Shown piece after piece: positions 25,184 to 54,906 of a stretch of 64,000 bases of DNA (positions are counted from its first letter, which is position 1; every line of letters starts with the position of its first letter). Under the pieces are notes generated by a model. The model was not told the DNA's origin, ran no database searches, and saw nothing but the letters and a program-made list of their open reading frames with translations. The DNA lies in NCBI RefSeq assembly GCF_036345915.1, contig NZ_CP107785.1:372001-436000 (forward strand), read 5' to 3'. Made by a program: the position numbers and the translations under genes. This stretch comes from Nocardia sp. NBC_00565. Lineage in GTDB: Bacteria > Actinomycetota > Actinomycetes > Mycobacteriales > Mycobacteriaceae.

Positions 25184-25651
25184 ATGACCAGCATCGACAC
25201 GCACAGTAATGGGACCGTCGCGGCACGCGTCAACGAACTGACCACGGTATTCGAGCGGGGGCTGCAGGAGAATCTGGGAGTCGGCGCGTCGCTGGGGATT
25301 CGGTTGCAGACCGCGGGGGACGGCTACACGCGGTACTACCTGGATCCCAATCCGGCCACCATCAATGCCATGTTCACGGTGCACGGCGGGGTGATCGCGA
25401 CGCTGATGGATACCGCGATGGGCAGCGCCGTCTTCACGAAACTCGGTGACGGCGTGGCCTATACGACCCTGGAGCTCAAGGTGAACTTCATCCGGTCGGT
25501 GACGCTGGACGGGTCGCGACTCACGTGTGAGGCCAACGCGATTCACGTCGGGCGACGCACCGCGACCGCGGAGGGGCGGATCACCGACGCGAACGGCAAA
25601 TTGATCGCACACGGTTCGACCACGATCCTGGTGTTGCCTTCGGAGCAGTGA
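25184..25651 (+). CDS. PaaI-like hotdog thioesterase
   Basis: 155 residues with the hotdog pattern of acyl-CoA thioesterases: a central helix after MFTVHGGVIATLMDTAMGSAV (HGG then the D of the active site region) and YTTLELKVNFIRSV strands. The family hydrolyses small aryl- or acyl-thioesters. GAGGAAGAG precedes the chosen ATG. It points toward the lipid cluster's leftward operon and shares a bidirectional hairpin with it. It may clear stalled thioesters for the cluster, or be unrelated. Confidence 0.8.
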   Translation: MTSIDTHSNGTVAARVNELTTVFERGLQENLGVGASLGIRLQTAGDGYTRYYLDPNPATINAMFTVHGGVIATLMDTAMGSAVFTKLGDGVAYTTLELKVNFIRSVTLDGSRLTCEANAIHVGRRTATAEGRITDANGKLIAHGSTTILVLPSEQ

Positions 25652-25659
25652 AAGGCCCG

Positions 25660-25699
25660 AATGGCCCTGCCTCCAAACGGTTTCAGCGGCAGGGCCATT
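25660..25699. terminator. bidirectional hairpin terminator between convergent genes
   Basis: Perfect 12-bp arms AATGGCCCTGCC and GGCAGGGCCATT around a 16-nt loop, located exactly between the stops of the thioesterase gene and the leftward desaturase gene. It should end transcription from both sides. Confidence 0.75.
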
Positions 25700-25700
25700 G

Positions 25701-26543
25701 TCACGCCAGCGAGTGGCATTCTTCGATGAATCGCACCAGTTCGTCGAGCCGATCGGATCTGGCGTCCACCGTCCGGTCGATCACCTTGACCAGATGATCG
25801 TACGCCTCGGTGTGGTCGTAGGCGGCCACATCGGCGATCTTCAGCGCCCACCGCCAATAGCCACGCATGGTGTCGGCCAACGGCATGCGGAAGTTGGCGA
25901 TCACATCGCGGATCGGCTCCACCGTGGCATCGCCCTGCACCCGCAGATAACGACCGACCACATCGGCCATGAAGCTGAAATGCCGTGCCTCGTCGCGCGC
26001 GAGCCGCCCGAGCACCGCCGCGAGAATTGGATCGTCGACCACATCGCGCAGGTGCTGGTAGTACATCTGGGTCGCCTTCTCCTGAACCAGCGCGTAGGCG
26101 AAGAACTGCACGGGGTGGTCGTAGGGCAGGTCGAACGGTTTCTGCCCTTCGATCGCCAATTCCGCACGCAGCGAGCCACGTTCGGCGATACCGGAAGCCT
26201 CTTGGTATCTGGTGAGGGCACGGGCGTGCGTGTCCTCCTCCAAGGCCCAGCGCACGGTGAAGTGGTAGAGCTCGCGGTTGTGGATGAAGGTGTCGCGATC
26301 CACGGTGTCGTCCACCGGGAAATGCCGGTGGTACACATCGAAATAGCCGGGCAGGTGATCCTCGATGAGGGTGACGAACTGCACCGCCGAGCGCTGGCCG
26401 TCGGTGAGCCGGTTGGCGTCGGCGTGTGACCAGTCGAAGGCGGTCTCCACATCCCAGGCCCGGGCGGCGGGCGAGGCGGCGAGGAAGCCGTCGACCGCCG
26501 CCGCCACCTCGTCGACGGGAATCAGTGCGGATTCGATATTCAT
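25701..26543 (-). CDS. acyl-ACP desaturase-type diiron oxygenase
   Basis: 280 residues with a full set of ferritin-like diiron ligands: E61, E103-x2-H106 (LEEDTHARAL), E155 (QEKATQMYYQH) and E185-x2-H188 (ARDEARHFSF). This is the six-ligand arrangement of soluble stearoyl-ACP desaturases (DesA). Its substrate is probably a fatty acyl chain on the ACP at 27383-27643 in the same operon, where it would insert a double bond or a related oxidation. It is the last gene of the leftward operon and starts 10 nt after the methyltransferase stop. Confidence 0.85.
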   Translation of the reverse strand: MNIESALIPVDEVAAAVDGFLAASPAARAWDVETAFDWSHADANRLTDGQRSAVQFVTLIEDHLPGYFDVYHRHFPVDDTVDRDTFIHNRELYHFTVRWALEEDTHARALTRYQEASGIAERGSLRAELAIEGQKPFDLPYDHPVQFFAYALVQEKATQMYYQHLRDVVDDPILAAVLGRLARDEARHFSFMADVVGRYLRVQGDATVEPIRDVIANFRMPLADTMRGYWRWALKIADVAAYDHTEAYDHLVKVIDRTVDARSDRLDELVRFIEECHSLA

Positions 26544-26552
26544 CTGTCTCTC

Positions 26553-27386
26553 CTACCGGACATTACGGCAGGTCAGCGCGTAATGCTTGGTCGTATAACC
26601 CCATCCGGCATTGGCGATCTCGAGGTAGTGCCGCAGCTTCGCGGCCAGCCCCGGCCCGTGCGCGTCGATGCGCTCGGCGGCCGCGTCGACATTGGCGATC
26701 CAGTCATCGATGGTGCGGCGGTAGTGCTCGGTGAGGTCGTCCACCGCGATGATCGAGAATCCGGCGTCCTCGGCGGCGCTCACCAGATCCGAGAGCGGAC
26801 GCAGATCGCCCCAGCCGAAGATGTCCTCGCGCACGAACTCGGTGCCGACCCGGGTGTCGAAGGCATTGCGGGCGGAGGCATTTCGGAAGCAGCTCTCCGA
26901 GACGTACAGTGCGCCGCCGCGGCGCAGCACGGCACGGGCGCGCCGGAAGATCTCGCCGAGGTCGGGCATGTGCACGATCGAGCCGAGCAGCGTCACCGCG
27001 TCGAAGCCGCGCACCGGGAAGTCGATTCGTTCGAAGTGCCCGACCTCGGTATGCACCCGCTCGGCGACACCACGTGCGACCGCCTGTTCGGCGATGTACT
27101 CGTGCTGGCGCGGCGCGGGGCTGATTCCCGTGGTATCGCAACCGAATTCCTCGGCCATGAACAGGATCAGCGAACCCCAGCCGCAGCCGACATCCAGCAG
27201 ACGCTCGCCGCCGTGCAAGCCGAGCCGATCGGCCACGAAGCGCAGTTTCTGCCGCTGCGCCTGCTCGAGGGTGTCAGTCGGCGAGTTGTACAGGGCGGAG
27301 CTGTATTTGCGCAGCGGGTCCAGGAACTGGCCGAAGATATCCGGGTCCAGGTCGTAGTGCTGGTTGGTGTCGGCGGTGGTGGTCAT
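26553..27386 (-). CDS. SAM-dependent methyltransferase, cyclopropane-fatty-acid-synthase-like
   Basis: 277 residues. The N-terminus (QHYDLDPDIFGQFLDPLRKYSSALY) matches the HYD-S-FF--FLDP--YSCAYF stretch of CFA/mycolic acid cyclopropane synthases, and LLDVGCGWGSL near residue 62 is the SAM-binding motif. Family members add a methyl or methylene group to lipid double bonds; shorter relatives act on other substrates. It overlaps the ACP gene by 4 nt, hinting at work on an ACP-bound acyl chain made unsaturated by the neighbouring desaturase. Methyl branching, cyclopropane formation or O-methylation cannot be told apart from sequence alone. Confidence 0.8.
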   Translation of the reverse strand: MTTTADTNQHYDLDPDIFGQFLDPLRKYSSALYNSPTDTLEQAQRQKLRFVADRLGLHGGERLLDVGCGWGSLILFMAEEFGCDTTGISPAPRQHEYIAEQAVARGVAERVHTEVGHFERIDFPVRGFDAVTLLGSIVHMPDLGEIFRRARAVLRRGGALYVSESCFRNASARNAFDTRVGTEFVREDIFGWGDLRPLSDLVSAAEDAGFSIIAVDDLTEHYRRTIDDWIANVDAAAERIDAHGPGLAAKLRHYLEIANAGWGYTTKHYALTCRNVR

Positions 27387-27643
27387 GCCGCTGCCTCACG
27401 CAGGGCCCGATCGACCACCTTGACGACATCGCTGAGGGTGGACAATCCGAAGACGTCCTGGTCTTCCAGCTCGATGTCATAGGTGCGTTCGATCTTGGCG
27501 ACCATGCGCAGCACGCGAACGGAGTCGACGCCGGCCATACCGCGCAGGTCCACGTCGGGCAGCAGGTCGGCCTGGGCGATGCCGGTCTCGGCGGCGGCGA
27601 TATCGGTGACGGTGCGCAGGATGTCGTCGGCGGTGTGGGGCAT
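27383..27643 (-). CDS. free-standing acyl carrier protein
   Basis: 86 residues with the phosphopantetheine site GVDSVRVL at S41. The protein is acidic and helical, as ACPs are. It overlaps the thioesterase gene (1 nt) and the methyltransferase gene (4 nt), so it is tightly built into the leftward operon. The FAAL of the same operon would load it with a fatty acid, and the two diiron proteins and the methyltransferase would act on the acyl-ACP. Confidence 0.9.
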   Translation of the reverse strand: MPHTADDILRTVTDIAAAETGIAQADLLPDVDLRGMAGVDSVRVLRMVAKIERTYDIELEDQDVFGLSTLSDVVKVVDRALREAAA

Positions 27644-28167
27644 TACTGAACTCCATTCGAAGAGAGGGCATTCGCAGTGGTCAATGCGTGCGTGAGCAGG
27701 GCGACCTCGTCGTCGCCGAGGGTGAGTTGGTGGCGGACCGCATCGAATTCGAAGGGCTGGTAGGCCGCGCTGGAGGTCGCGCAGACGGTGCCGTCGTCGT
27801 CCAGGATCTCGGCCGAGGCCAGGATCGGCAGCTTGGTCCCGGAAAGCGTCGCGACACAGTGGTATTCGTGGTCGACCAGCAGCGGTGTGATGAATCGGGT
27901 GCGCTGGGAGACGGTGAACGCGGGGTGATGGCGGGCCAGCACGATCAGATTGCCCATCACCTCGTCGCAGATCACGCCGATGAGCCCGCCGTGCACCACA
28001 CCCGGGTAGGACTCGAAGGATCGTCCGAGCCGGAACCGCGCCTGCAGGCCGTCCGCATGCGGTTCGAAGCTCAACCGCAGTCCGGACGCGTTATGCGGTG
28101 AGCAGCCGAAGCAGTGGTAGTCCGGAATCACCGACCACGGCACCTGAACCGGTCCATGTCGCTCCAT
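27643..28167 (-). CDS. hotdog-fold thioesterase (PaaI/THEM4-like)
   Basis: 174 residues. HCFGCSPHNASGLRLSF is the typical CFGC-x-N-xGL opening of this subfamily, and YPGVVHGGLIGVICDEVMG holds the active-site helix. It would release or edit acyl groups from the neighbouring ACP or from CoA. It lies between the second diiron gene (3 nt gap) and the ACP gene, consistent with an acyl-ACP substrate. Confidence 0.85.
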   Translation of the reverse strand: MERHGPVQVPWSVIPDYHCFGCSPHNASGLRLSFEPHADGLQARFRLGRSFESYPGVVHGGLIGVICDEVMGNLIVLARHHPAFTVSQRTRFITPLLVDHEYHCVATLSGTKLPILASAEILDDDGTVCATSSAAYQPFEFDAVRHQLTLGDDEVALLTHALTTANALSSNGVQ

Positions 28168-28170
28168 GGG

Positions 28171-28959
28171 TCAGGCGATCGCGTCGGCGAGGGCGCGGCG
28201 GACCTTCGCATTGGAGGACAGGTCGAGGCCGGTCATGTTGGCGAAGGTGCGACGCACCTTGTCGTGCAGCACATCCAGCTCACCCTCGGCGGCGACCTGC
28301 TCGAGGAACAGGTCGAATCCGGTGTCGATGGTCTCGTGCTCGCCGAGTTCGCTGATGCCCGCCTTGAAGGTGCTCACCGGATGCTTGATCTTGGCTTCGG
28401 AGCTGTAGACGTACAGGGTCTCCAGCACCGAGGGCAGCTCCTCGGGTCGCTGTTCGAGCCGCTTGGTGGTGTAGTGGATGAATTCGCGGGCGTGCCCGGC
28501 CTCGTCGCGACTCGCGTCGAGCAGCAGGCCCTTCAGCACCGGCTCCTGCACCCAGCTCGCGACCGCGCGGTAGATGTGGTTCACCGTGAGTTCGGAGATG
28601 ATATTGGTGGCCAGGGTGGCCGAGGGGGTGGTGCCCGGTGCGTACGGTTCGCGCATCGAGTCGACCGCCTTGTCGTCCACGCTCTCGCCGACCGCGTCGA
28701 GCCAGGAGCGGAAAGCGTAGTGGTGCTGCACTTCCTGGTAGCCCCATACCACCGCGAAGGTGGAGAAGTCGTAGTCGTCGACGAATTCGTTCATGAAGCC
28801 GTGGACCGCGGCGATGACATTGGATTCGCCCATGGTGGCGCTCTTGGCCAGCGTCACGTACTCGGGCCGGACCAGCGTCCGGTCGACGGCGTCGAGGTCC
28901 AGATCGGCCAGGCGCCAATGCAGGCGCTCGTAGTGGCGGAAGACTTCATAGCTGTGCAC
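28171..28959 (-). CDS. second diiron (ferritin-like) acyl-ACP desaturase-type protein
   Basis: 262 residues. Visible ligand pairs are E76-x2-H79 (YQEVQHHYAF) and E153-x2-H156 (RDEAGHAREF), with E123 (SELTVNHIY) and a likely N-terminal Glu (E45 or E58). It is only distantly similar to the desaturase at 25701-26543, so the two are not recent duplicates. Such enzymes can desaturate, hydroxylate or make terminal alkynes or alkenes. Cotranscribed with FAAL, thioesterase and ACP, so an acyl-ACP is the expected substrate. Confidence 0.75.
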   Translation of the reverse strand: MHSYEVFRHYERLHWRLADLDLDAVDRTLVRPEYVTLAKSATMGESNVIAAVHGFMNEFVDDYDFSTFAVVWGYQEVQHHYAFRSWLDAVGESVDDKAVDSMREPYAPGTTPSATLATNIISELTVNHIYRAVASWVQEPVLKGLLLDASRDEAGHAREFIHYTTKRLEQRPEELPSVLETLYVYSSEAKIKHPVSTFKAGISELGEHETIDTGFDLFLEQVAAEGELDVLHDKVRRTFANMTGLDLSSNAKVRRALADAIA

Positions 28960-28989
28960 AGGAGACTCCAGTTCGGTCGATGCGAGAGG

Positions 28990-30642
28990 TCATTGCCGTG
29001 GGGAGATGAGGTCGCGGGCGGCGAGGCGCTGCAATTTGCCGCTACTGGTGCGTGGAATACTGCGGGGCGCAACGAGATACACCTCGATCGCGGGCAGCCC
29101 GAGTTCGGTGGCGATGCGGGCGCGGATCCGAGTGGCGAGCGCGTCGGCGTCCGCCCCGGTGTATTCGGATTCGGCGATCAGCGCGATGACGTCGGCGCCG
29201 TCGGGATCGGTCGCGGCCGTGCACCGGCCCTTGTAGACGCCGTCGAGATCGCGCACCACCGCCTCGACGTCCTGGGCGTAATAATTGTCGCCGCGCACGG
29301 TGATCATGTCCTTGCATCGGCCGGTGACGAACAGTTCGCCGTCGCGCAGATATCCGAGATCGCCGGTGCGCAACCAGCCTTCGGTATGCAGACCCGCCAC
29401 ACTCGACGGATCCGCGGTCAGGTAGCCGTCGGTGACCGACGGGCCCTGGATGTGGATCTCGCCGACCGCGCCGTCCGGGAGTTCGTGGCCGGTGCCGAGA
29501 TCCACGATGCGCAGGCGCAGACCGGCGACCGCGGAACCGACACCGGCCACCGCCCGCGCGCCCGGCGCGTCCGGCGAAACATGCTGTGCCCGAGCATCAT
29601 CGGCCAGCCGCGCCCGATCGACCCACTCGAACAACGGTTCCCGGCCCAGCGGCGGGAAAGCGACGGCGAGGGTGGCCTCGGCCATGCCGTAGACCCCGAA
29701 CATCGTCGACGGTGCGAAACCCGCGGGGGCGAAACGCTCGCAGAAGGCGCGGACCACGTCGCGGGCGATCGGTTCGGAGCCGTTGAACGCGATGCGCCAG
29801 TGCCGCAGGTCGTAGTCGGCGACCTGGTCCGGTGCGATCGCGCTCAGCAGCGCCTCGTAGCCGAAATTCGGCATCGCGGTGATGGTGGTGCCGCTGGCCG
29901 CGAATTCGGCGAGCCAGCGGGCCGGATCCTTGACGAACGCCAGCGGTGACCAGACGTGCGCGGGAATGCCGCGCAGGATGGCCGATAACGTGCCGAACAG
30001 GCCCATATCGTGGAACAGCGGCAGCCAGAATCCGCCTTGGTCGTCCAGGTCGAGTGCGATGCCGGTGCGGATCGCGGCCAGCCCGCTGAGGGCGTTGTGG
30101 TGGGTCAGGCGCACGCCTTTGGGGGTGGCGGTGCTGCCGGAGGTGAACTGCACGATGGCCAGGTCGTCGGCCCCGAGTGTCGGCAGCTGACTGTCTTCGA
30201 TTTCGGCGAATAGCGTTGCGGTGTCGACTAATTCGACGTCAACGGCGGCGCCGAGCAGCGCGGCCAGATCGGCGAACCGGTGCGATATCAGGACGGTGCG
30301 CATCCCCGCGGACTGGACAATCGCGCGCAGCTTCTGCGGGTACCCGCTCATCTGCTGGGCCCCGGCGGGCAAGGGCAGGGGAGTGGCCGCACCGCCGGCC
30401 GCCGCGACGCCGAACAGGCCGATCAGGAATTCGGGCGCATTCGGGCACAGAATGCCCACCGGCTCGCCTCGCTGTACCCCACGCCGGACCAGTGCGGCGG
30501 CGGCCACCCGGGACAACCGGTCGAGCTCGGCGTAGGTGAGCGTTTCCGATACCGACCAGAATGTGGCGGTCACCTCGGGGTGCTCGGCCGCGATCTCGGC
30601 CAGGCGGCCCGGCAGCGTTTCGACCGATTCCGCAGAATTCAT
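28990..30642 (-). CDS. fatty acyl-AMP ligase (FAAL)
   Basis: 550 residues. P-loop QFTSGSTATPKGV, FNGSEPI and YGMAEATLAV are hallmarks of FAALs, which activate a fatty acid as acyl-AMP and pass it to an ACP rather than to CoA. TGDLGYLRDGELFVTGR and the C-terminal SSGKLQR are also present. It is the first gene of the leftward operon and shares a divergent promoter region (30643-30868) with the P450 operon. It should load the ACP at 27383-27643. The start at 30642 is chosen by family length; the frame is open further upstream. Confidence 0.9.
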   Translation of the reverse strand: MNSAESVETLPGRLAEIAAEHPEVTATFWSVSETLTYAELDRLSRVAAAALVRRGVQRGEPVGILCPNAPEFLIGLFGVAAAGGAATPLPLPAGAQQMSGYPQKLRAIVQSAGMRTVLISHRFADLAALLGAAVDVELVDTATLFAEIEDSQLPTLGADDLAIVQFTSGSTATPKGVRLTHHNALSGLAAIRTGIALDLDDQGGFWLPLFHDMGLFGTLSAILRGIPAHVWSPLAFVKDPARWLAEFAASGTTITAMPNFGYEALLSAIAPDQVADYDLRHWRIAFNGSEPIARDVVRAFCERFAPAGFAPSTMFGVYGMAEATLAVAFPPLGREPLFEWVDRARLADDARAQHVSPDAPGARAVAGVGSAVAGLRLRIVDLGTGHELPDGAVGEIHIQGPSVTDGYLTADPSSVAGLHTEGWLRTGDLGYLRDGELFVTGRCKDMITVRGDNYYAQDVEAVVRDLDGVYKGRCTAATDPDGADVIALIAESEYTGADADALATRIRARIATELGLPAIEVYLVAPRSIPRTSSGKLQRLAARDLISPRQ

Positions 30643-30868
30643 GTCTGCCACGACAACAGCGAATTGTGACGACGCCTTGAACGCATTGTGAATTACCGTC
30701 TGCGATAAACAACGGCGATCAACCAATCGCGTTGCCTGATACGGGATTCGGGCTATGGCGCGATAGGAACGGGCAATCGTCGCCGTATCGGTTGGTGCGC
30801 CGGGACCACGATGGACCGGAATTGTTTTCCCCGGGTGTCCATTTCGCATTCCATTTCAGGAGTTGCCG

Positions 30869-32107
30869 GTGAGTTCCGACCATTCCACGGTCGACGAGTC
30901 GACCCCGGTCCAGCTGGCGGTCGTCGAAAGCGTCGCACCCCATATGCGGCACAATCCGTACGGCAGTTACCAGGTTTTGCGCGGGGCGGGCCCATTCGTA
31001 CCGGGGCCGCACGATATGCAGCTGGTGACGCGCCACCACGAGGCGCAGACGATCATGCAGGACCCGCGCTGGAGCCATGCCGAGGAACCGCAGCTGCTGC
31101 ACGGCGACAGCGATGTCGAACTGCCCGGGTCGTTCCTGTGGATGGAGCCGCCGGAGCACACCCGGTTGCGTGGCCTGGTCAGCAAGGCATTCACCGCGCG
31201 GACGGTCAGCGGCATGCGAGCCAGGGCCGAACAGCTCGTCGACGATCTGCTGGCGAAAATGCTCGCCGTCGGCGATGTCGACCTGCTCGACGCACTGGCG
31301 TATCCGCTGCCGCTCACCATGGTGTGCGAGCTGCTCGGTGTGCCCGCCGAGGCGCACGAACATGTGCGCCAGATCTCGACCGGAATCGCTCGCGGTCTCG
31401 ATCCCGACCTACTGCTCTCGGCCGAAGAATTGGCCGCGCGCACCGCGGCGGTGCACTCCTTCCTGGAATTCTTCGGCGATCTGGTGGAACAGCGACGCAA
31501 GGCGCCGCGTGCGGATCTGATCACGGCGCTGGTGCAGGCCGACGACGCCGGCGCCCGGCTGACCCGCACCGAATTGCTCGGCACGCTGCTGATTCTCGTC
31601 GTCGCCGGGCACGAGACGACGGTGAACCTGATCGGCAACGGTGTACTCGCGCTGATCCGCCATCCCGAGGAGTTCGAGCGGCTGCGCGAGTTCCCCGAAC
31701 TGTGCGAGCCCGCCGTCGACGAGGTGCTGCGCTACGACGCGCCCGTGCACCTCACCACCCGCACCGCGCACGACGAAATCACCGTCTCCGGAAGAACTTT
31801 CGGACCGGGCGACGCGGTGATCGTGCTGCTCGCCTCGGCCAATCGCGATCCGCTCGCCTTCCCCGACGCCGACAGGTTCGACGTCGCACGCTATGCCGGG
31901 GGCCGAAAGCCGGAGCGGCACTTGTCCTTCGGGCTCGGGCTGCACTACTGCCTCGGCGCGCCGCTGGCCCGGCTGGAGATGCAGGTGGTGCTGCGCGCGA
32001 TTACCGAGCGCGTCGGATCCATGACTCTGCTCGCGGAACCGCCCTACCGGCCGAATGTGGTGGTGCGTGGCATGTCCCAACTGCACGTCCGGCTGGAGGC
32101 CAGATGA
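30869..32107 (+). CDS. cytochrome P450 (CYP107-like), first of the cluster
   Basis: 412 residues with canonical motifs: I-helix AGHETTV, K-helix DEVLR, and heme region FGLGLHYCLGAPLARLE with C361. A GTG start is chosen because CAGGAG lies 6 nt upstream. It is the first gene of the rightward oxidation operon and overlaps the next P450 gene by 4 nt. Soluble class I bacterial P450s of this type hydroxylate or epoxidise secondary metabolites; the likely substrate is the cluster's lipid product or an ACP-bound intermediate. No ferredoxin gene is nearby. Confidence 0.9.
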   Translation: MSSDHSTVDESTPVQLAVVESVAPHMRHNPYGSYQVLRGAGPFVPGPHDMQLVTRHHEAQTIMQDPRWSHAEEPQLLHGDSDVELPGSFLWMEPPEHTRLRGLVSKAFTARTVSGMRARAEQLVDDLLAKMLAVGDVDLLDALAYPLPLTMVCELLGVPAEAHEHVRQISTGIARGLDPDLLLSAEELAARTAAVHSFLEFFGDLVEQRRKAPRADLITALVQADDAGARLTRTELLGTLLILVVAGHETTVNLIGNGVLALIRHPEEFERLREFPELCEPAVDEVLRYDAPVHLTTRTAHDEITVSGRTFGPGDAVIVLLASANRDPLAFPDADRFDVARYAGGRKPERHLSFGLGLHYCLGAPLARLEMQVVLRAITERVGSMTLLAEPPYRPNVVVRGMSQLHVRLEAR

Positions 32108-33375
32108 ATACAATATCGCGCAGCGATTCCACCAGGGGTGGTAGTCGGGCGACGGGTGAGCCTACCGCCATTCCGATTACTTTCGACGCGTTCGACCCGA
32201 GCGAGCGCGCGGATCCTTATCCGGCCTACCGCCGGGTGCGTGACGCCGCCGCATTGTTCCCGTACGAATTCGGCGATGTGCCGGTCACTTTGATCACCCG
32301 CTACGAGGAATGTGCCGCCATCCTGACCGGCTCGGACTGGGGTCACGGCTATGCCGCCGGAATCAGCCCGTTCCGGGATACCACCGCCGCGATTCCGGGG
32401 TCGTTCGTCCGGATGGATCCGCCCGAACACGGTCGCTACCGCAAGCTGGTGGCGAAGGCGTTCACGCCCAAGATGATGACGGAGATGGTGCCGCTCGCCG
32501 GTCGGGTCGTCGGCGATCTGGTCGAATCCGCGCTGCGGCGTGGCGAACTCGATGTGCTGAACGATCTCGCGGTGCCGCTGGCGGTGGCGATGGTGCCGGT
32601 CCGGCTGCTCGGCGCCGATCCGGCCGATGGCGCGCTGTTCCGCGAGTGGCAGTTGGCGATCGCGCGCGGTAGCGACCCGGATTCGCTGCTCGGCGCGCAC
32701 GAGGTGGCCGCGCGCGGCACCGCGGCGATGGAGTGCATGGGGTACTTCGCCCGGCTGATTCAGCAGAAGAAGGCGGATCCAACACCGGATCTGTTGAGCG
32801 CCTTGGTCGCCGCGAGCGCGGACGGTGAGCAGTTGTCCGAGCCCGAGGTGATCGGGATCGCCTTGCTGACGCTGGTCGCCGGCATGGAGACCTCGATCAA
32901 CCTGATCGGCAACGGCATGCTCGCACTGCTGCGCAATCCGGCGCAGCTGCAACGACTTCGGGACAATCCGGAGCTGATCGCGCCGTCGCTGGAAGAGATG
33001 CTGCGCTACGACGCACCGACCCAGTTCACTATCCGGGTCGCTCTGGCCGACACCACCGTCGGCGAGCATCGGTTCCGTCGCGGCGACGGCGTGGTGGTGC
33101 TCACCGCATCGGCCAGCCGGGACGACCGGGTCTACCCGGATGCGGACACCTTCGACGTCACCCGCTACGCCGGAAACCGTCCGGCCCGCAAGCATCTCGG
33201 TTTCAGTCTCGGCATCCACTACTGCGTCGGCGCACCGCTGGCACGCATCGAGGCCGAGGCCGCCCTCGGCACCCTGCTCGAACGCGCCCCGAAACTCGAG
33301 CTGGCCACCGAGGCCGTCGAATACCGACCCAGTCTGATCCACCGCGGCATCGTGTCGTTGCCGGTGACGTTATGA
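32104..33375 (+). CDS. cytochrome P450, second of the cluster, with a repeat-encoded N-terminus
   Basis: 423 residues with AGMETS in the I-helix (His of AGHETT replaced by Met), EEMLR in the K-helix and heme region FSLGIHYCVGAPLARIE (C374). Residues 1-20 (MNTISRSDSTRGGSRATGE) are encoded by a repeat also seen at the start of the BCCP gene; the normal P450 fold begins after about residue 25. It overlaps the previous P450 by 4 nt. Downstream, a 71-nt mini-ORF unit leads to the flavin monooxygenase gene. Confidence 0.88.
   Translation: MNTISRSDSTRGGSRATGEPTAIPITFDAFDPSERADPYPAYRRVRDAAALFPYEFGDVPVTLITRYEECAAILTGSDWGHGYAAGISPFRDTTAAIPGSFVRMDPPEHGRYRKLVAKAFTPKMMTEMVPLAGRVVGDLVESALRRGELDVLNDLAVPLAVAMVPVRLLGADPADGALFREWQLAIARGSDPDSLLGAHEVAARGTAAMECMGYFARLIQQKKADPTPDLLSALVAASADGEQLSEPEVIGIALLTLVAGMETSINLIGNGMLALLRNPAQLQRLRDNPELIAPSLEEMLRYDAPTQFTIRVALADTTVGEHRFRRGDGVVVLTASASRDDRVYPDADTFDVTRYAGNRPARKHLGFSLGIHYCVGAPLARIEAEAALGTLLERAPKLELATEAVEYRPSLIHRGIVSLPVTL
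32113..32155 (+). repeat. dispersed repeat copy A, translated
   Basis: About 40 nt, including AGGGGTGG and GGCGACGGGTG, that match copy B at 52745-52785 in about 30 of 40 positions. It encodes SDSTRGG in the same frame as copy B and so adds a short, probably disordered N-terminus to the P450. Confidence 0.5.
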
Positions 33376-33446
33376 GCGAGCGAATAATCAACACAGCCGA
33401 CATCTCGGTCATGACGGAGCTGAGCGCCGGCGAGGCGGAGTCATGA
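33372..33446 (+). CDS. MIRU-like mini-ORF overlapping both neighbours
   Basis: 24 codons (MSERIINTADISVMTELSAGEAES). Its ATG overlaps the stop of the P450 gene (ATGA), and its TGA overlaps the start of the flavin monooxygenase gene (ATGA). This is the arrangement of mycobacterial interspersed repetitive units (MIRUs), small units inserted at operon junctions that keep translational coupling. The segment also begins ATGAGCGA like the units at 53271-53535. Whether the peptide is stable is unknown. Confidence 0.5.
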   Translation: MSERIINTADISVMTELSAGEAES

Positions 33447-34792: not shown

Positions 34793-34883
34793 CGGGAACC
34801 GCAGCGCCGCGGCCCGCACCGTCACATTCCGACCGGCCGCACCGCCAGTTCGGCGGCGCGGCGCACCGAAGGGACCACCCGAT

Positions 34884-36152: not shown

Positions 36153-36158
36153 GTACCG

Positions 36159-36194
36159 CTTCGGACCCGGTGTCATAGCGCGCCGGGTCCGAAG
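36159..36194. terminator. hairpin terminator after the P450/FMO operon
   Basis: Perfect 12-bp arms CTTCGGACCCGG and CCGGGTCCGAAG around a 12-nt loop, beginning 6 nt after the P450 stop. The remaining 200 nt before the LysR gene shows no other gene. Confidence 0.8.
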
Positions 36195-37331: not shown

Positions 37332-37419
37332 GTCCTTCGATAGGCCATGACATTCGCGCGGTAGGAAACGCCGTATCGGCGGGGACGTAATTCATTGTCG
37401 CCGACCAGAATTCGACATT

Positions 37420-39150: not shown

Positions 39151-39254
39151 GCGCGGCCGATCGACCGATGAATTACCACTGGCCGCGGTGGTTTTCATCG
39201 CGCACCGACCACAGACTCGAAATCGGAATTCGACTACCGGAAAGTGATGCGAAC

Positions 39255-41101: not shown

Positions 41102-41130
41102 TCTTTCCATCCGGTTCGAGAGGAACTTTC

Positions 41131-47430: not shown

Positions 47431-49490
47431 CGGTCCTCGAGTTCGACGGGGTTCCCTTCGATCCGATCGGTACTGCTTCCGCCGCGCCGCCGGTGGTACG
47501 TCCAACGCACGACGCGACGACTGCGACGGCTGCCGTGCAGGCGGTCGCCGACCAAGCCGCGGACGCTGCTGTCGCGGCACCGGGGGAGTCGGTTGGCCAT
47601 GGAGTGGCGACTGGTGTGGCCGCGGCGCCAGCGCAGTCGGTTGGCCGCGGAGTGACGACTGGTGCGGTCGCGGTGCCAGCAGCTCAGCGGGTGCCGGGAC
47701 CACTCACCGAGATCCGTTCGGGCGTCGTGGCGGCGCACCGTGCGGCGTTGACCGCGCAGGTGGCACTGCAACGGGCGGTCTGGCAGCGGATGCTGCGCGT
47801 ACAGGCGCCGGTGGCGGCTGAACCCACTATCGCGGCGGTTGCACCCGGCATCGCGGCCTGTGCGCCGGAATGGGCACTCAAGCCGCTGGCTCGTACCGCG
47901 CGCACCAGCCTCGACGGGGCCGCGTTGCGCCGCCTCGCCGAGGGAGACGTCACCGGCGTGTTCGGCTATCGGCGCTCCGGTATCGACTCGGCGGCGCGAC
48001 TCGCGGCCACAGGACCATTGGTGCTCACCGAGGTCGCAGCCATCGAATTGCGCGGTGGCACCGGAAGCGGCCGGGTGGTCGCGCATTTCGACGGCGATAT
48101 GCGTGCGGCGGCAGTGCAGGCCGCGGAAGTGTTCGCACTGTTCACCGGTCTGCAGCTGTGCCTGTCGGGGAGCACCTTCGTCTCCGAGCCGGAAATTTCC
48201 GAAAGTGCGTCCGGCACTGTCGAGTTCGTTGTCACCGAGATCGACCTGGTCCCGCGACCGCACGTCACCGGCACTGCGACCGTCACGGGAGTAGCTCGGC
48301 CACAGCAGGTCACCGTGACGGTTGTCGAACCCGCAGGTACCGGAGTGGGCCCGGGCGCGGCGGTATCGGACATGCTGCTCAACGAATTCCACATGACCCA
48401 CCTCGCGCGTGGTGATCAGGGCATCGCGATGGGACCCGAATTCGCCGGGTACACCGGTGTTCGCGCCACCCGCTTGCCCACCGGCGGCCTGCTACTGGTC
48501 GACCGGGTAGTCGAATTCGACGGCGCGCGTGGCCGATTGGACGGCGCGTCCTACCGCACCGAATACGACGCACCCGCCGATTCCTGGTACTACGGCGATA
48601 CCGCCAACGAATCCATGCCGCATTTCGTGTACATGGAGACCTCACTACAGGCAGCGCTGTTGATGGGCTACTACGCCGGACCCACCCTCACCCAGCCGGG
48701 CGTCACCCTGAGCCTGCGCAATCTCGGCGGCACGGCGACTGTCCTGCGCCGAGTCGATCTGCGGGACAAGACGATCGAGCAGACCTCACGTCTGCTGTCG
48801 ACGACCATCCTGCCCGGCTCGTCCCTGCAGAACTTCGACTACACGCTGAGCGTGGACGGCGAACCGTTCTACACCGGCGAGACCATGTTCGGTTACTTCA
48901 GCGACGAAGCGCTGGCGAATCAGACCGGCCTCGATGCCGGGCGCGACGCACCCACGTGGCTGGATGAGCATCCGGCTGCCACCGTCCGCACCATCGATGT
49001 CGCCGCTCGCCGCGCCGATCCCGACGCGCAGCTGTGCGCCCGCCGGACGCTGGCGCTGATCGACCGTATCGATGTGGTCGACGGCGGCGGGAAATACTCG
49101 GCGGGATACCTGCATTCGTTGCGCGAGATCGACCCGTCGGATTGGTATTTCGCCCGCCACTTCCACCTGGATCCGGTAATTCCGGGATCGCTGGGTGTGG
49201 AATCGGTCATCCACGCGGTCCAGGAGTGGATGCTCGATGCCGGATTCGCCGACACGATCAGCGATCCGGTCTTCCGCATCCCCAGCGATATCGCCTTCAG
49301 TTGGCGCTACCGCGGCCAGTTCCTGCCGACGGACGCGACGGTGCGTCTGGAGGCCCACATCAAGGAGATCCGCCGGGGTGCGCACGGCGTCACCGTCATC
49401 GCCGACGGCTCGCTGTGGAAGCCCGGACTGCGCATCTACGAAGTCATCGACCTGGCAATCGAACTCGGCGAGCGGGAGGACCGGCCATGA
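47427..49490 (+). CDS. PfaC-like tandem FabA-type dehydratase protein without KS-CLF
   Basis: 687 residues. After a long Ala-rich N-terminal part with imperfect repeats (ESVGHGVATGVA, QSVGRGVTTGAV; about residues 40-90), two FabA-like hotdog domains follow. The first shows MPHFVYMETSLQAALLMGYY, the form of PfaC DH1; the second ARHFHLDPVIPGSLGVESVIHAVQEW with H578, the form of DH2. PfaC proteins normally begin with KS and chain-length-factor domains, which are absent here. It overlaps the synthase gene and the PfaD-like gene by 4 nt each. It should dehydrate or isomerise beta-hydroxyacyl intermediates. Confidence 0.85.
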   Translation: MTVLEFDGVPFDPIGTASAAPPVVRPTHDATTATAAVQAVADQAADAAVAAPGESVGHGVATGVAAAPAQSVGRGVTTGAVAVPAAQRVPGPLTEIRSGVVAAHRAALTAQVALQRAVWQRMLRVQAPVAAEPTIAAVAPGIAACAPEWALKPLARTARTSLDGAALRRLAEGDVTGVFGYRRSGIDSAARLAATGPLVLTEVAAIELRGGTGSGRVVAHFDGDMRAAAVQAAEVFALFTGLQLCLSGSTFVSEPEISESASGTVEFVVTEIDLVPRPHVTGTATVTGVARPQQVTVTVVEPAGTGVGPGAAVSDMLLNEFHMTHLARGDQGIAMGPEFAGYTGVRATRLPTGGLLLVDRVVEFDGARGRLDGASYRTEYDAPADSWYYGDTANESMPHFVYMETSLQAALLMGYYAGPTLTQPGVTLSLRNLGGTATVLRRVDLRDKTIEQTSRLLSTTILPGSSLQNFDYTLSVDGEPFYTGETMFGYFSDEALANQTGLDAGRDAPTWLDEHPAATVRTIDVAARRADPDAQLCARRTLALIDRIDVVDGGGKYSAGYLHSLREIDPSDWYFARHFHLDPVIPGSLGVESVIHAVQEWMLDAGFADTISDPVFRIPSDIAFSWRYRGQFLPTDATVRLEAHIKEIRRGAHGVTVIADGSLWKPGLRIYEVIDLAIELGEREDRP

Positions 49491-51055
49491 CCACATTCCC
49501 GACCACGGTCGTCGCGGAGACCGCCGATGACATCACCGCCGTACTGCTCGATGTGCGGCGACCGTGCTGGATCGTGCGCCACGACGGCCGGGTGGGCGCA
49601 ACCTCCGATGCGACTGTCGCCGCTCGAGCACAGGTCCTCACTGCGGTCGCGCCGCTGCCGCCGGAGTTGCTCGGCGACAAACAGTTTCACGCGACCCATG
49701 GGGTGCGCGCCGCGTACGTCGCCGGGGCGATGGCCAACGGGATCGCCTCGCCCGCAATGGTTTCGGCGATGGCACGAGCGGGCTACCTCGCGTCCTACGG
49801 TGCCGCGGGCGTGACACCCGCGGCGGTGGACGCGGCGCTGGCCGAACTCAGCCGGACCACCGGTGGAAAGCCGTTCGCCTGCAACCTGATCCACAGCCCG
49901 TCCGAACCGGCGCTGGAACGGTCGATCGTCGATGCCTGCCTGCGCCACCAGGTGCGCTGCGTCGAGGCGTCGGCCTTCATGGGCTTGACCGCCGAGGTCG
50001 TGCGGTACCGGGCGGCGGGGCTCGGCGTGGACCGGCACGGTCAGGTGGAGGTGCGTAATCGCCTGATAGCCAAGGTGTCCCGGGTCGAGGTCGCGGAACC
50101 GTTCCTGCGTCCGGCGCCCGCGAACTTGCTGCGGCAGCTGGTCGAATCCGGCGATCTGACACCCGTACAGGCCAGCTTGGCCGAGCGGGTGCCGATGGCC
50201 GACGACATCACCGCGGAGGCCGATTCCGGCGGGCACACCGACCGCAGGCCGCTGCTCGTACTGCTCCCGGAGCTCATCGCCGCTCGCGACCGGATCGCCC
50301 GCACGGTGCCCGCCGCCGCGGCGGTACGCATCGGCGCGGCAGGCGGTATCGGCACACCGGCCGCCGCGGCGGCGGCATTCGCATTGGGAGCCGCGTACGT
50401 GGTGACCGGCTCGATCAACCAGGCCACCCGCGAGGCCGCGCAGTGCGACACCACCAAACAGCTATTGGCCCGGGCGGATTTCGCCGACTGCACCATGGCG
50501 CCGTCCTCCGATATGTTCGAACTCGGTGTGCAGGTGCAGGTCCTGCGGCGGGGCACCATGTTCGCGGCCCGTGCCCAGCGGTTGTACGACACCTACCGCG
50601 CCTACGCGGGAATGGACGATATCCCCGTCGAACTGCGCGGGGACCTCGAGGCCACGCTGTTCCGGCGGCCGCTTGCAACCGTTTGGCAGGACTGCGTCAC
50701 CTACTTCACCGAACGCGATCCCGGCCAGTTGGTCGGCGCGGCCGAGGATCCGAAACGCAAGATGGCCTTGGTGTTCCGGTGGTACCTGGGGCTGTCGTCG
50801 GGCTGGAGTATCCGCGGCGAAGCCGATCGAGTCGCTGACTATCAGGTGTGGTGTGGACCCGCGATGGGCGGGTTCAACAACTGGGCTGCCGGGTCCTATC
50901 TGGCCGCCCTGAGCAACCGGCATATCGCCGATATCGCCGACCAGATGATGCTGGGCGCCGCGTATCTCACCCGAATCGCCCAGCTGCGTACCGCGGGCAC
51001 CCGGCTACCCGCCGAATGCGCCCGATTCGTTCCGCGACCAATGGAGCATCGATGA
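49487..51055 (+). CDS. PfaD-like enoyl reductase (FMN, nitronate monooxygenase-like fold)
   Basis: 522 residues. Family-type stretches include [89 protein letters not shown] and [20 protein letters not shown](T)MFAARAQ. These follow PfaD closely. PfaD supplies the trans-acting enoyl-ACP reductase for PUFA synthases, using NAD(P)H and FMN. Overlaps of 4 nt at both ends place it inside the synthase operon, between the DH-DH gene and the carboxylase genes. Confidence 0.9.
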
Positions 51056-52737
51056 CAACACTGGAAACCGATTCGGACACCAGGACCTCCTGGATGGTGT
51101 GCCCGTTCTGTGCCGCCATGATCTACGCCAAACGCTACGACCGTGGCGGCCGGGTGTGCCCGGACTGTGACGGTCACGGCGCACTGACCGCCGACCAGCG
51201 CATCGACTCGCTCATCGACAGCGGCTCGGCGCAACCCATCGAGCCGGCCGAGACACTCCGAGATCCACTGGGGTTCAGCGACTCTCGCAGCTACCTCGAG
51301 CGCCGCGGCGAGGCACAGCGCCGCACCGGAATGGACGATGCCATCCGCTGCGTGCGCGCGAGCATCGGCGGCGCTCCGGTTGTGCTGGCGGTCATGGACT
51401 TCCGCTTCCTCGGCGGCAGCCTCGGCAGTGCGGTGGGGGAGGCGGTGACGACGGCCGCCGAGGTGGCCTTGTCGGCGCGCGTTCCGCTGGTGCTGGTGAC
51501 CGCGTCCGGCGGTGCGCGCATGCAGGAGGGGATCTTGGCGCTGATGCAGATGGCCAAGACCAGCCAGGCGCTGCGCGACCTCGATGACGCGGGCGTACTG
51601 ACCATCTCGGTGATCACCGACCCGACCTATGGCGGTGTGGCGGCCTCCTATGCCACATCCACCGACATCATCATCGCCGAGCCCGGGGCACGGCTGGGCT
51701 TCGCGGGCCCGCGGGTGATCCAGCAGACCATCGGGGAGACCCTGCCCGCCGGTTTCCAGACGGCGGAGTTCCTGCTCGAACACGGCGTGGTGGATATGAT
51801 CTGCCACCGCTCCGCATTGCGTGACCGGCTCGCGCGGCTGCTGGCGCTGGCAGCGGACAGTTCGCGGCGGGTCGATTTCGTGGAATCCGTGCCGCCGGTG
51901 CGGCGGGATCCGGCGACGTTGCCAACCCGGGATGCCTGGCAGAGTGTCCGTGCGGCACGGGAATTGGGACGTCCGACCACGCTGGACTACCTTTCGTCGG
52001 CCTTCGACGAGTTCATCGAATTGCACGGCGATCGGCTCAGCGCCGACTGCCCGGCCATGATCACCGCGCTGGCCCGCCTCGCCGGTGCGCCGGTGCTGGT
52101 AATCGGCACCCAGAAGGGCCATACCGCGGGCGAACTCGCCCGACGAAACTACGGGATGCCGACTCCGTCCGGTTACCGCAAGTCCGCTCGCGCATTGCGG
52201 CTGGCCGCGAAACTGGGACTGCCCGTGATCACGCTGGTGGACACCGCGGGTGCCTATCCTGGCATCACCGCCGAGGAACAGGGTCAAGCCGTCGCGATCG
52301 CCGAATCGCTGAAACTGCTTGCCGGACTGCCCGTTCCGATCGTCTCGGTGATCACCGGCGAGGGTGGTAGCGGTGGCGCGCTTGCGCTCGCGCTGGCCGA
52401 CCGGGTGCTCGTCTTCGAGAACGCGGTGTATTCGGTGATCAGCCCCGAGGGCTGTGCATCGATCCTGTGGAAGGACGCCTCGGCCGCGCCGCGGGCCGCT
52501 GCCGCACTGCGGGTCGATTCGACGGCCCTGCTCGAACTCGGCGTCGCGGATGCGGTGGTGCCGGAGCCGCACGGCGGCGCGCATCGCGATCCGGCCGCGG
52601 CGGCCGCGCAGCTGCGTCGCGCCTTGCGGCACAGCCTCGCCGAACTCGGGCCGCTGCCGGTCACGGATCTACTCGATAGGCGCCACTACCGTTTTCGCGC
52701 CTTCGGCCTGCCCACGACGAACCACCAGGAGAAGTAG
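51052..52737 (+). CDS. accDA: acetyl-CoA carboxylase carboxyltransferase, fused AccD-AccA
   Basis: 561 residues. The N-terminal half is AccD-like with a zinc ribbon at C17, C20, C36 and C39, followed by the beta-subunit crotonase fold ([15 protein letters not shown] [22 protein letters not shown]). The C-terminal half is AccA-like ([70 protein letters not shown]). It transfers the carboxyl group from carboxybiotin to acetyl-CoA to give malonyl-CoA. Most actinobacterial housekeeping enzymes are AccA3/AccD5-like instead, so this bacterial-type set looks dedicated to the cluster. Confidence 0.9.
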
Positions 52738-53274
52738 ATGAATCACAGCGACTCGACGAGGGGTGGCGGCCAGGAGGCGGGTGGGCCCGAGTCCGTCACC
52801 ACCCAGCCGGGCCGGGCGATGAATCCGGCCGATGCCGATCGCGCGCTGACCGTACTGTCGCGGCATGCGTTGAGCGTGCGCGCGGAGACCGCGCCGACCT
52901 CGGTGACGGTGGCCAATGGTCCACTGCTGCTGCGGATCAGCTGGGACGGCGAATCCGGTGTGGTCGGGTCCAGCGCGGCGCCGACCGCTGTTATCGAGGA
53001 AGCGCCCGCCGAAACACCCACGGATACAAATACATTCACGATCGCCGCCGAAACAGTCGGGGTGTTCTACCGGTCGCCGGAACCCGGCGCTGCCCCGTTC
53101 GTCGCCGAGGGTGACCCGGTGCGGGCGGGCCAGCAGGTCGGCATCGTCGAGGCCATGAAACTGATGATCCCGGTCACCGCCACCCGCGAGGGCCGGGTGG
53201 CCGCACTCCTGGTCGAGAACGGCGAAGCGGTTGAGCACGGCACGGCACTGATAGTGCTCGAGGTCGTGCGATGA
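52738..53274 (+). CDS. accB: biotin carboxyl carrier protein (BCCP)
   Basis: 178 residues with a biotinyl lysine K141 in VEAMKLM and the usual C-terminal lipoyl/biotinyl fold preceded by a flexible Ala/Pro-rich linker. AGGAG just before the ATG supports this start. Residues 1-25 (SDSTRGGGQEAGG and neighbours) are encoded by a dispersed repeat also seen in the P450 at 32104; the conserved part starts near residue 28. It carries CO2 between AccC and the fused AccDA. Confidence 0.9.
   Translation: MNHSDSTRGGGQEAGGPESVTTQPGRAMNPADADRALTVLSRHALSVRAETAPTSVTVANGPLLLRISWDGESGVVGSSAAPTAVIEEAPAETPTDTNTFTIAAETVGVFYRSPEPGAAPFVAEGDPVRAGQQVGIVEAMKLMIPVTATREGRVAALLVENGEAVEHGTALIVLEVVR
52745..52785 (+). repeat. 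dispersed repeat copy B, translated
   Basis: Copy of the unit at 32113-32155, with about 75% identity over 40 nt and the same reading frame (SDSTRGG). Located at the 5' end of the BCCP gene. Confidence 0.5.
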
Positions 53275-53390
53275 GCGAACCCAGTGAGTACAGGGGCGCG
53301 GGGCGCTGGCCGGGCGACGGGTGGGCGCGAATCATGTGCCAGCGCGTCTCGCGCATGCCGGCGCCGAGCGTCAGCGGGGTGCGGGCATGA
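53271..53390 (+). CDS. MIRU-like mini-ORF 1 between BCCP and AccC genes
   Basis: 39 codons starting ATGAGCGAA inside the BCCP stop (ATGA) and ending in a TGA that overlaps the ATG of the next mini-ORF. It encodes an Arg/Gly/Pro-rich peptide of no known family. It contains GGGCGACGGGTG, also present in the repeat at 32113-32155. It may only serve to pass ribosomes to the next gene. Confidence 0.45.
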   Translation: MSEPSEYRGAGRWPGDGWARIMCQRVSRMPAPSVSGVRA

Positions 53391-53535
53391 GCGAGCGTGG
53401 CGAGGAAGCGTTGGTATTCGCTCGTGCCGGAGCGGAGGGGTGGCGGGGTGCGGGGATGAGCGAGCGTGGCGAGGGAACGATGGACACAGCCGCGTACTCG
53501 CTCGTGCTGGAGCCGAACGCTAGCGGGGTGCAGAC
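53271..53535 (+). repeat. tandem MIRU-like units at the BCCP-AccC junction
   Basis: Three units of 116, 69 and 80 nt, each beginning ATGAGCGA and ending with a variant of AGCGGGGTGCGGGC just before the next ATGAGCGA. The last copy runs into the AccC start codon, so AccC itself begins with MSE from the repeat. The unit at 33372-33442 has the same plan. Confidence 0.6.
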
Positions 53536-53539
53536 ATGA
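53387..53539 (+). CDS. MIRU-like mini-ORF 2 with internal duplication
   Basis: 50 codons. It starts ATGAGCGAG at 53387 overlapping the stop of mini-ORF 1, contains a second copy of the unit in frame (RGAGMSERGE, ATG at 53456), and ends in a TGA overlapping the AccC start (ATGA at 53536). Coupled start/stop overlaps at both ends point to translation in passing. The peptide has no known family. Confidence 0.45.
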   Translation: MSERGEEALVFARAGAEGWRGAGMSERGEGTMDTAAYSLVLEPNASGVQT

Positions 53540-54906
53540 GCGAGATTCGCAAGGTACTGATCGCCAACCGCGGTGAGATCGCCGTGCGGGTTATCCGCAC
53601 CTGCGCTGAACTCGGCATCGCTACGGTCGCGGTGTATTCCGAACCCGACGCCGATTCCGCGTGGGTCCGGTTGGCCGACCACGCGGTGCGGATCGGCCCG
53701 GGCCCCGCCAAGCGCAGCTACTCCTACATTCCGGCGATCATCGAGGCCGCCCGGGCGACCGGCGCGGACGCGATCCATCCCGGATACGGATTCCTGTCCG
53801 AAGACCCGGATTTCGCGGAGGTGTGCGAGGCCGAGGGCTTCGTCTTCGTCGGCACACCCGCCGCGGTGCTCGCCGAGCTCGGCGATAAATCCACCGCGCG
53901 CGCCTTGATGTCGGCGGCCGGTCTGCCCTTGCTACCGGGCAGCCGTGACACACTCGACACCGCCGAGGAGGCGCAGACCCTGGCCGACGGCATCGGCTAC
54001 CCGGTGATCATCAAAGCCGTTGCGGGCGGCGGCGGTCGCGGTATGCGGGTCGTGCGCGATCCGGCCGATTTCGCCGCCGACTGGCAGGAGACCCGCGCCA
54101 ACGCCACCGCCGTCTTCGGTGACGGTCGCCTCTACGTCGAGCGCTACCTCGACTCGGCCCGCCACATCGAGGTGCAGATCCTCGCCGACGTCCACGGCAC
54201 GGTAATCCATCTCGGCGCGCGGGATTGCTCCCTGCAACGCCGCCACCAGAAGCTCGTCGAGGAGTCGCCGGCCCCCGGCCTGCCCGATGAACTCGTCGCC
54301 CGCATCGGCGCGGCGGCGGTCCGCGGTGCCGAAGCCGTGGGTTACGTCGGCGCGGGCACCTTCGAATTCCTCCTCGACCCCGAAGGCCGCTTCTACTTCA
54401 TGGAAGTCAATTGCCGCCTCCAGGTAGAACATCCGGTCACCGAAATGGTCACCGGCATCGACCTGGTCGCCGAACAACTCCGCATCGCATCGGGCCAACC
54501 CCTGTCCATTTCCCCCGAAGCCGCCACACCCCGCGGCGTCGCCATCGAATGCCGCATCAATGCCGAAGATCCGAACCGCGAATTCGCCCCCGCCCCCGGC
54601 ACTCTCACCGAATGCGTACTCCCCGCTGGCCCCTTCGTCCGTGTCGACACCCACGTAGCCCCCGGCTACTCCATACCCCCGCACTACGATTCGCTACTCG
54701 CCAAGGTCATCGTCTGGGCCCCCGATCGCAACACCGCCATTGCCCGCATGCGCCGCGCCCTCTCCGCAACCTGCATCCGCGGCACCGGCATCGCCACCAC
54801 CACCGACTTCCTCCACGACATCCTCGACCACCCCCGCTTCCGCGCCGCAAACCACGACACGGCCCTAATCGGCACCCTCACCACCCAAATCCGCGCCGCT
54901 TCGTAG
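53536..54906 (+). CDS. accC: biotin carboxylase subunit (AccC)
   Basis: 456 residues, the usual AccC length. KVLIANRGEIAVRVIRTC opens the N-terminal domain, IHPGYGFLSE and the ATP-grasp loop KAVAGGGGRGMRVV follow, then the active-site strand MEVNCRLQVEHPVTEMVTGIDLV, where the common MEMN(T/P)R has become MEVNCR. It carboxylates biotin on BCCP using ATP and bicarbonate. It closes the synthase operon; together with AccDA and BCCP it makes a complete, separate acetyl-CoA carboxylase. Confidence 0.92.
   Translation: MSEIRKVLIANRGEIAVRVIRTCAELGIATVAVYSEPDADSAWVRLADHAVRIGPGPAKRSYSYIPAIIEAARATGADAIHPGYGFLSEDPDFAEVCEAEGFVFVGTPAAVLAELGDKSTARALMSAAGLPLLPGSRDTLDTAEEAQTLADGIGYPVIIKAVAGGGGRGMRVVRDPADFAADWQETRANATAVFGDGRLYVERYLDSARHIEVQILADVHGTVIHLGARDCSLQRRHQKLVEESPAPGLPDELVARIGAAAVRGAEAVGYVGAGTFEFLLDPEGRFYFMEVNCRLQVEHPVTEMVTGIDLVAEQLRIASGQPLSISPEAATPRGVAIECRINAEDPNREFAPAPGTLTECVLPAGPFVRVDTHVAPGYSIPPHYDSLLAKVIVWAPDRNTAIARMRRALSATCIRGTGIATTTDFLHDILDHPRFRAANHDTALIGTLTTQIRAAS

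Follow-up and report, generated by a model that had tools for sequence, protein, structure and literature searches.

A conserved gene cluster of Nocardia for the apparent synthesis of a decorated long-chain lipid by a simplified relative of omega-3 fatty-acid synthases

The window analyzed here is a stretch of 64,000 nucleotides from Nocardia sp. NBC_00565 (contig NZ_CP107785.1, positions 372,001 to 436,000; G000:C1:372001-436000), an organism whose 9.7 Mb genome is a single contig. Judged from its sequence, a cluster of about thirty genes in this region, which stay close together in related soil bacteria, seems to encode a route to a long-chain lipid with chemical decorations, its chain being assembled by a slimmed-down relative of the synthase for omega-3 fatty acids. 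The cluster is a real and conserved one and is probably functional. We give a probability of about 0.6 to the reading that approx. 42 kb form one biosynthetic cluster for a specialized lipid, including the mechanism proposed below; that its two blocks, termed modules A and B, serve one pathway is highly probable. A first-pass annotation, made from the sequence alone, had described a cluster of about 30 kb whose parts would fit one route. These parts were found where it had placed them, with intact reading frames, and the single route is well backed, but the cluster is larger than described, as importer genes (58717-63857) and genes past the end of the window recur with it, and its acetyl-CoA carboxylase (ACC) is optional.

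The 26 open reading frames (ORFs) between 25109 and 63857 contain no internal stops (Table 1). Module A consists of a thioesterase gene at 25109, a minus-strand operon encoding a fatty acyl-AMP ligase (FAAL), a second diiron protein, a probable thioesterase, a free acyl carrier protein (ACP), a CMAS-family methyltransferase and a soluble desaturase, and a divergent plus-strand group of two cytochrome P450 (P450) genes, a flavoprotein gene and a third P450 gene. Module B, on the plus strand, comprises genes for a LysR regulator, an acyl-CoA ligase, a second flavoprotein (FAD2), a GDSL esterase, PfaA, a dehydratase, PfaD, a fused AccD-AccA carboxyltransferase (AccDA), a biotin carboxyl carrier protein (BCCP) and a biotin carboxylase (BC). 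Overlaps of 4 bases join FAD2 to GDSL, P450 a to P450 b, and each of PfaA, the dehydratase, PfaD and AccDA to the next.

From these gene families we infer the reactions, their order and the product as follows. The FAAL would activate a fatty acid and load it onto the free ACP, where the soluble desaturase and the second diiron protein may add unsaturation or oxygen and the CMAS-type enzyme may methylate or cyclopropanate the double bond. The acyl group so made would be the starter for, or the partner of, an iterative synthase with a single ketosynthase (KS), in which PfaA, the separate dehydratase and PfaD would turn malonyl-CoA, provided by the private ACC where a strain has one, into a chain that keeps some double bonds. 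A flavoprotein like Lsd18 and MonCI, fed by a 2Fe-2S reductase, would then epoxidize or hydroxylate the chain, and the P450s would oxidize it further. The GDSL esterase and the thioesterases may act in release, with the GDSL enzyme as a conjectured stand-in for PfaB, the terminal acyltransferase of marine synthases (PMC12895367). Finally, the importer and the phosphoesterase may import and trim a polar partner, or reclaim the product. The most specific version of this scheme is tentative and, in our judgment, unlikely in all its details: a polyunsaturated fatty acid (PUFA)-type synthase free of the ketosynthase-chain-length factor (KS-CLF) would be primed by an ACP-bound methyl-branched or cyclopropyl unit, the MonCI-like flavoprotein would epoxidize the polyene, the resulting lipid would carry epoxide or ether groups and differ from the actinobacterial products known so far, and the importer would be dedicated to the head group.

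The content of module A matches the earlier proposal that an acid is activated and modified on ACP. FAAL models ranked first for its ligase, at 384 against a family cutoff of 600. The second diiron protein has the soluble acyl-ACP desaturase fold and two EXXH motifs; as R2-like oxidases score within about 1 Z of the desaturases, its reaction may be of either type. The two diiron oxygenases had been called unrelated, a view that does not hold, since both proteins have this common fold (desaturase/R2). The product of the gene between those for the ACP and the second diiron protein is taken to be a probable hotdog thioesterase from its motif. The plus-strand flavoprotein is homologous over residues 3-384 to Lsd18/LasC and MonCI (E values of 4.1e-57 and 2.5e-51), which epoxidize polyenes in polyether pathways, MonCI having been studied on a carrier-bound substrate (PMC10560226). 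Two stretches conserved in MonCI and Lsd18 (PMC10560226) are only partly kept, appearing in altered form as RRGVPQARHLHGLL and FNPLYAQGMAVAA; we therefore read the protein only as a relative of these enzymes, with epoxidation or hydroxylation as its putative reaction. A polyether pathway proper was rejected, given the altered stretches and the fact that no cyclase was recognized.

The same cluster could be joined differently: the FAAL cassette would make not the starter of the Pfa chain but a separate acyl chain, attached to it by esterification or condensation. The separate activating ligase in each module, the occurrence of module A without Pfa genes in some genomes, and the presence of two thioesterases plus a GDSL enzyme would all suit such a join, but no chain-joining condensation or acyltransferase gene was recognized in the window, and we consider it unlikely, though the best of the alternatives.

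That modules A and B belong to one pathway is supported by their distribution. We compared 148 Nocardia genomes drawn from a larger group (a scan of genome contigs took in 80 of 326 relatives), using the FAAL alone as marker of module A; ORFs of relatives were called with a codon-score script, and the overlaps among FAAL, PfaD, cassette and binding-protein sets were compiled by hand from match lists. PfaD was matched in 77 of the 148 genomes and the FAAL ortholog in 54, all of them among the 77. Even when the 13 PfaD matches with at most 57% identity were set aside, leaving 64 genomes with in-clade PfaD (62% identity or more, plus three contig-edge pieces), the FAAL was still confined to those 64. 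FAAL and PfaD lay on the same contig, 15.5-83.5 kb apart, in 39 of the 54 genomes and on different contigs in 15; among named genomes with a PfaD locus, 21/34 had the FAAL ortholog. Moreover, both modules are kept as blocks across 15 genome neighborhoods, with module A outside or partly outside the stretch in some.

Beyond the genus, a search of 394 genomes of the class turned up the diiron gene in 30; of these, 28 belong to one family (f20, probably Pseudonocardiaceae). At least one other cassette gene adjoins it in 27 of these 28 loci, usually in the order FAAL-diiron-thioesterase-ACP-CMAS, and PfaD was present in 22 of the 28 genomes, with 10 pairs on one contig, 9 of them 19-39 kb apart. 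Five genomes of this family (G412, G218, G341, G455 and G301) carry, all in one direction, FAAL, diiron protein, thioesterase, ACP, CMAS, desaturase, P450, LysR, ligase, FAD2 and GDSL genes, followed by PfaA in the three whose stretch extends that far; in G412 and G218 all thirty parts lie within 42-44 kb. Overall, the claim that the parts fit one route is well supported: the modules occur together, stay linked even where the order has been rearranged, and form contiguous arrays in a second family.

A second cassette with enzymes of the same kinds (membrane desaturase, ACP, CMAS, P450 and FAAL) recurs with the same synthase and replaces module A in some genomes. The genome studied here has one as well (G000:C1:3199500-3205330, L242), 2.8 Mb from the window. 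Such a cassette lies near module B in six Nocardia neighborhoods and adjoins Pfa genes in Williamsia, Amycolatopsis and Saccharopolyspora; in loci from Tsukamurella and Gordonia, its first genes are seen at the ends. The desaturase of this cassette, used alone as marker, was found in 40 of the 148 Nocardia genomes, 39 of which have in-clade PfaD. Among the 64 in-clade genomes, 31 have both cassettes, 23 module A only, 8 the second only and 2 neither by marker, so that 62 have one or both.

Several observations weigh against a single route. Modules A and B touch in the window and in G155, and are approx. 16-28 kb apart in five other genomes examined (G114, G107, G129, G045 and G175); Nocardia G134 has neither cassette by marker, and G059, matched to Nocardia seriolae, has only part of module A. 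In f20, the single-contig genome G268 has the diiron gene and PfaD 1.19 Mb apart, and six of the 28 carriers of the diiron gene gave no match to PfaD, among them the very fragmented G403 and G439. In G280 (L206-L207), a cassette like module A occurs with no Pfa genes, adjoining instead an importer, an AMP-ligase-carrier-reductase protein, an aminotransferase and a sulfotransferase; module A can thus serve other routes, and this cassette perhaps represents another lipid route. Rhodococcus G020, read by tblastn, has modules B and C with neither cassette within 80 kb. The importer binding protein, too, occurs without in-clade PfaD, in 15 of the 79 genomes that have it. Two independent pathways at a common chromosomal hot spot would account for such distances, up to 83 kb within Nocardia, and for the solitary occurrences of module A and of the importer. 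They would not account for the complete lack of FAAL without PfaD among the 148 Nocardia genomes, the five head-to-tail arrays, or the linkage of a second, similar cassette to the same synthase, and we regard this explanation as improbable.

The synthase itself had been described as a PUFA-synthase-like machine. PfaA (TIGR02813, 1533 bits against a cutoff of 1010; active-site motifs and two DSIK sites present) and PfaD (TIGR02814, 610 against 449) agree with that description, but the synthase is not a standard PUFA synthase, because it has one KS and lacks KS-CLF. The dehydratase protein holds a full DH2 and a diverged DH1 piece, and its predicted model (mean pLDDT 83) matches the mammalian FAS dehydratase model and FabA. 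A single KS was counted in the window and in each of 6 relatives, whereas a PfaC-side KS was present in 11/11 outside loci tried; genome-wide, none of 25 matches to a Shewanella KS-CLF query extended past residue 482 of 900. Among 40 window ORFs scanned, PF00698 occurred only in PfaA, with no second acyltransferase domain, and no PfaE phosphopantetheinyl transferase was found among the window ORFs scanned. A tblastn search for PfaB with the PfaA acyltransferase gave no match, nor did it in marine controls, and is thus uninformative.

In a midpoint-rooted tree of 81 rows, PfaD of the window belongs to a group of 56 (support 100/97) that is separate from the Streptomyces, cyanobacterial and marine sequences; it shares 90% identity with its counterpart in Nocardia suismassiliense and clusters with those of N. 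vinacea, N. colli and N. altamirensis. Among clade loci with enough flank (55 clade loci in all, three species represented twice), the GDSL gene was found in 41/41 and FAD2 in 37/41, as compared to 0/23 outside loci for both. FAD2 matches several flavin monooxygenases weakly, halogenases included; a true halogenase was rejected, as the matches are weak and the WxWxIP motif of halogenases is absent. The private ACC of the earlier description is complete in the window (AccD, TIGR00515, 331 against 317; AccA, TIGR00513, 323 against 319, i.e., E. coli-type; BC domains found; BCCP at 87.5, below its cutoff of 115, but with EAMKL present), but it is optional across relatives, AccDA occurring in 28/51 clade loci with enough flank and 2/22 outside.

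A pfaA-like cluster (#11) with the same KS/AT/ACP/ACP/KR order was described from some Nocardia by Komaki et al. (2014), who predicted PUFAs, of which none had been found (PMC4035055); the passages of that account treat it as a polyketide synthase with predicted PUFAs and do not mention a FAAL cassette, flavoprotein or importer. Shulse and Allen (2011) assigned secondary lipid synthase type Q to Rhodococcus erythropolis PR4 (PMC3098273), which is probably of the same lineage, as the R. qingshengii locus L033 falls in the clade (PR4 itself was not among the loci). A 2016 review called Rhodococcus pfa genes possible remnants (PMC4882568), and PUFA accumulation in Rhodococcus under stress has been reported, in passages that make no link to these genes (PMC7502451). 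The PUFA prediction for Nocardia and the remnant view for Rhodococcus, together with the family cutoffs that PfaA and PfaD pass, would favor an ordinary membrane-lipid PUFA synthase, or its remnant, with incidental neighbors. We hold this to be improbable, as KS-CLF was found in neither cluster nor genome, all ORFs are intact, the PfaD clade is separate and the partner genes are fixed; the remnant view in particular is weakened by a set that is intact and conserved.

Beyond the window, to G000:C1:439581, the hydrolase gene continues and is followed by genes for a thioesterase, an acyl-CoA dehydrogenase and a 2Fe-2S reductase. ORF calling placed genes of the hydrolase (c8), thioesterase (c9) and reductase (c10) families together with those of the importer permeases and the binding protein, within one stretch, in every one of 14 Nocardia neighborhoods. 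In three genomes (G236, G252 and G463), module B itself takes in the genes for the acyl-CoA dehydrogenase, the thioesterase and the hydrolase, which stand between FAD2 and GDSL. The reductase gene is followed by that for the flavoprotein in G412 and G218, and flavin monooxygenase and reductase form one ORF in L053:6481-8802 (44% and 52% identity). The binding protein occurs in 64/64 genomes with in-clade PfaD. In three of the 15 genomes that have it without in-clade PfaD, LysR adjoins the importer in two and the hydrolase-to-reductase genes are kept in one. The importer is thus a constant companion of the cluster whose role may be wider. A Ugp transporter proper was rejected, as of the UgpB, A, E and C family cutoffs only that for the ATPase is passed (445/432; binding protein 75/411). 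An MBL-fold protein is found near the importer in G280, G377, G236 and G106, while the phosphoesterase of the window is calcineurin-type. A function mainly in uptake and remodeling, with a lipid brought in by importer, hydrolases, ligase and dehydrogenase and altered by the remaining enzymes, would fit the recurrence of importer, phosphoesterase, hydrolase, acyl-CoA ligase and dehydrogenase together, but is the least probable alternative, given that the synthase is complete and uses malonyl units, and that many strains have a private ACC for it.

Our literature searches found no characterized pathway or product with this gene set, in line with the first-pass annotation, although the Nocardia pfaA gene itself had been reported in 2014 (PMC4035055). 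The cluster resembles the marine PUFA synthases (PfaABCDE; types A/B, Shulse and Allen 2011) in its KS-MAT-tandem ACP-KR protein, PfaC-type dehydratase and PfaD, but differs in the single KS, the lack of KS-CLF, the separate PfaD clade, the lack of a second acyltransferase domain among the window ORFs scanned, and the fixed FAD, GDSL, LysR, ligase and importer partners. Mycolic acid machinery (FadD32, Pks13) also combines FAAL, desaturase and CMAS-family enzymes acting on long chains; here, by contrast, there are a PfaA-like iterative synthase and a free ACP, and the FadD32 model scores 272 bits against a cutoff of 975. Dioxanopeptin-type clusters likewise use a pfa-type synthase for a specialized lipid, but occur in other host groups and with a nonribosomal peptide synthetase (PMC12964715), which is absent from the conserved set here.

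Table 1. Genes of the cluster and its importer, with positions in the window
Feature	Position	Strand	Basis or remark
Hotdog thioesterase (TE4HBT), module A edge	25109..25651	+	PF03061; adjoins cassette in relatives
Soluble acyl-ACP-desaturase-like diiron protein	25701..26543	-	PF03405; DesA2 match
CMAS-family S-adenosylmethionine methyltransferase	26553..27386	-	PF02353, E 1.1e-45
Free ACP	27383..27643	-	PF00550; DSV site
Probable hotdog thioesterase	27643..28167	-	No Pfam match; kept in cassette of relatives
Second diiron protein, desaturase/R2-like fold	28171..28959	-	EXXH motifs and structure
Fatty acyl-AMP ligase (FAAL type)	28990..30651	-	PF00501; FAAL models top-ranked, below cutoff
Cytochrome P450 a	30863..32107	+	PF00067
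Cytochrome P450 b	32104..33375	+	PF00067; start chosen from 4-base overlap
Lsd18/MonCI-like flavin monooxygenase	33443..34792	+	Homology; fused to reductase in L053
Cytochrome P450 c	34884..36152	+	PF00067
LysR regulator, first gene of module B	36399..37331	+	
Acyl-CoA ligase	37420..39150	+	PF00501, PF23562
Second flavoprotein (FAD2)	39168..40505	+	PF01494
GDSL esterase	40502..41101	+	PF13472
PfaA-like synthase: KS, MAT, two ACPs, KR, C-terminal DH-like part	41131..47430	+	
PfaC-type dehydratase without KS-CLF	47427..49490	+	
PfaD enoyl reductase	49487..51055	+	TIGR02814
Fused AccD-AccA carboxyltransferase	51052..52737	+	
Biotin carboxyl carrier protein	52738..53274	+	
Biotin carboxylase	53536..54906	+	
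ABC permease 1	58717..59538	-	PF00528; linked to synthase in relatives
ABC permease 2	59519..60466	-	PF00528
Calcineurin-type phosphoesterase	60470..61321	-	PF00149
Solute-binding protein	61318..62706	-	PF13416
UgpC/MalK-type ATPase	62730..63857	-	
Alpha/beta hydrolase, cut by window end	63867..64000	-	

Genes to the left of 25109 were rejected as members, as 18758-24848 adjoins module A in G155, and partly in G114, but is absent from the other genomes compared. This region includes a luciferase-like and radical SAM gene pair (20015-24848) that also adjoins module A in G155. At the left edge, an adenylation-MbtH protein (19-1752) and a KS domain 11 kb farther left (G000:C1:360911-361771) probably belong to a separate peptide/polyketide cluster. 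GNAT-like and helix-turn-helix ORFs (55354-57314) between the ACC and importer genes are not common to the other neighborhoods compared. The Rfam search of the window gave 0 matches, and promoter and terminator scans gave no signal above shuffled sequences. Among relatives, module A is broken at G059:C4:44400-48600 (L247), where the FAAL, the diiron gene and two P450s are unmatched and the other genes remain, and the fused ORF of L053 adjoins a second, diverged Pfa locus of N. arizonensis.

Actinobacterial pfa genes have hitherto been taken as PUFA makers or remnants; here they form an intact, widely kept cluster with fixed partners, and its product should therefore be findable. The linkage shows which genes to delete together, and the existence of two interchangeable cassettes hints at the way in which the lipid may vary. 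If the proposed mechanism is true, this would be an iterative synthase that is active without KS-CLF and accepts a tailored acyl unit.

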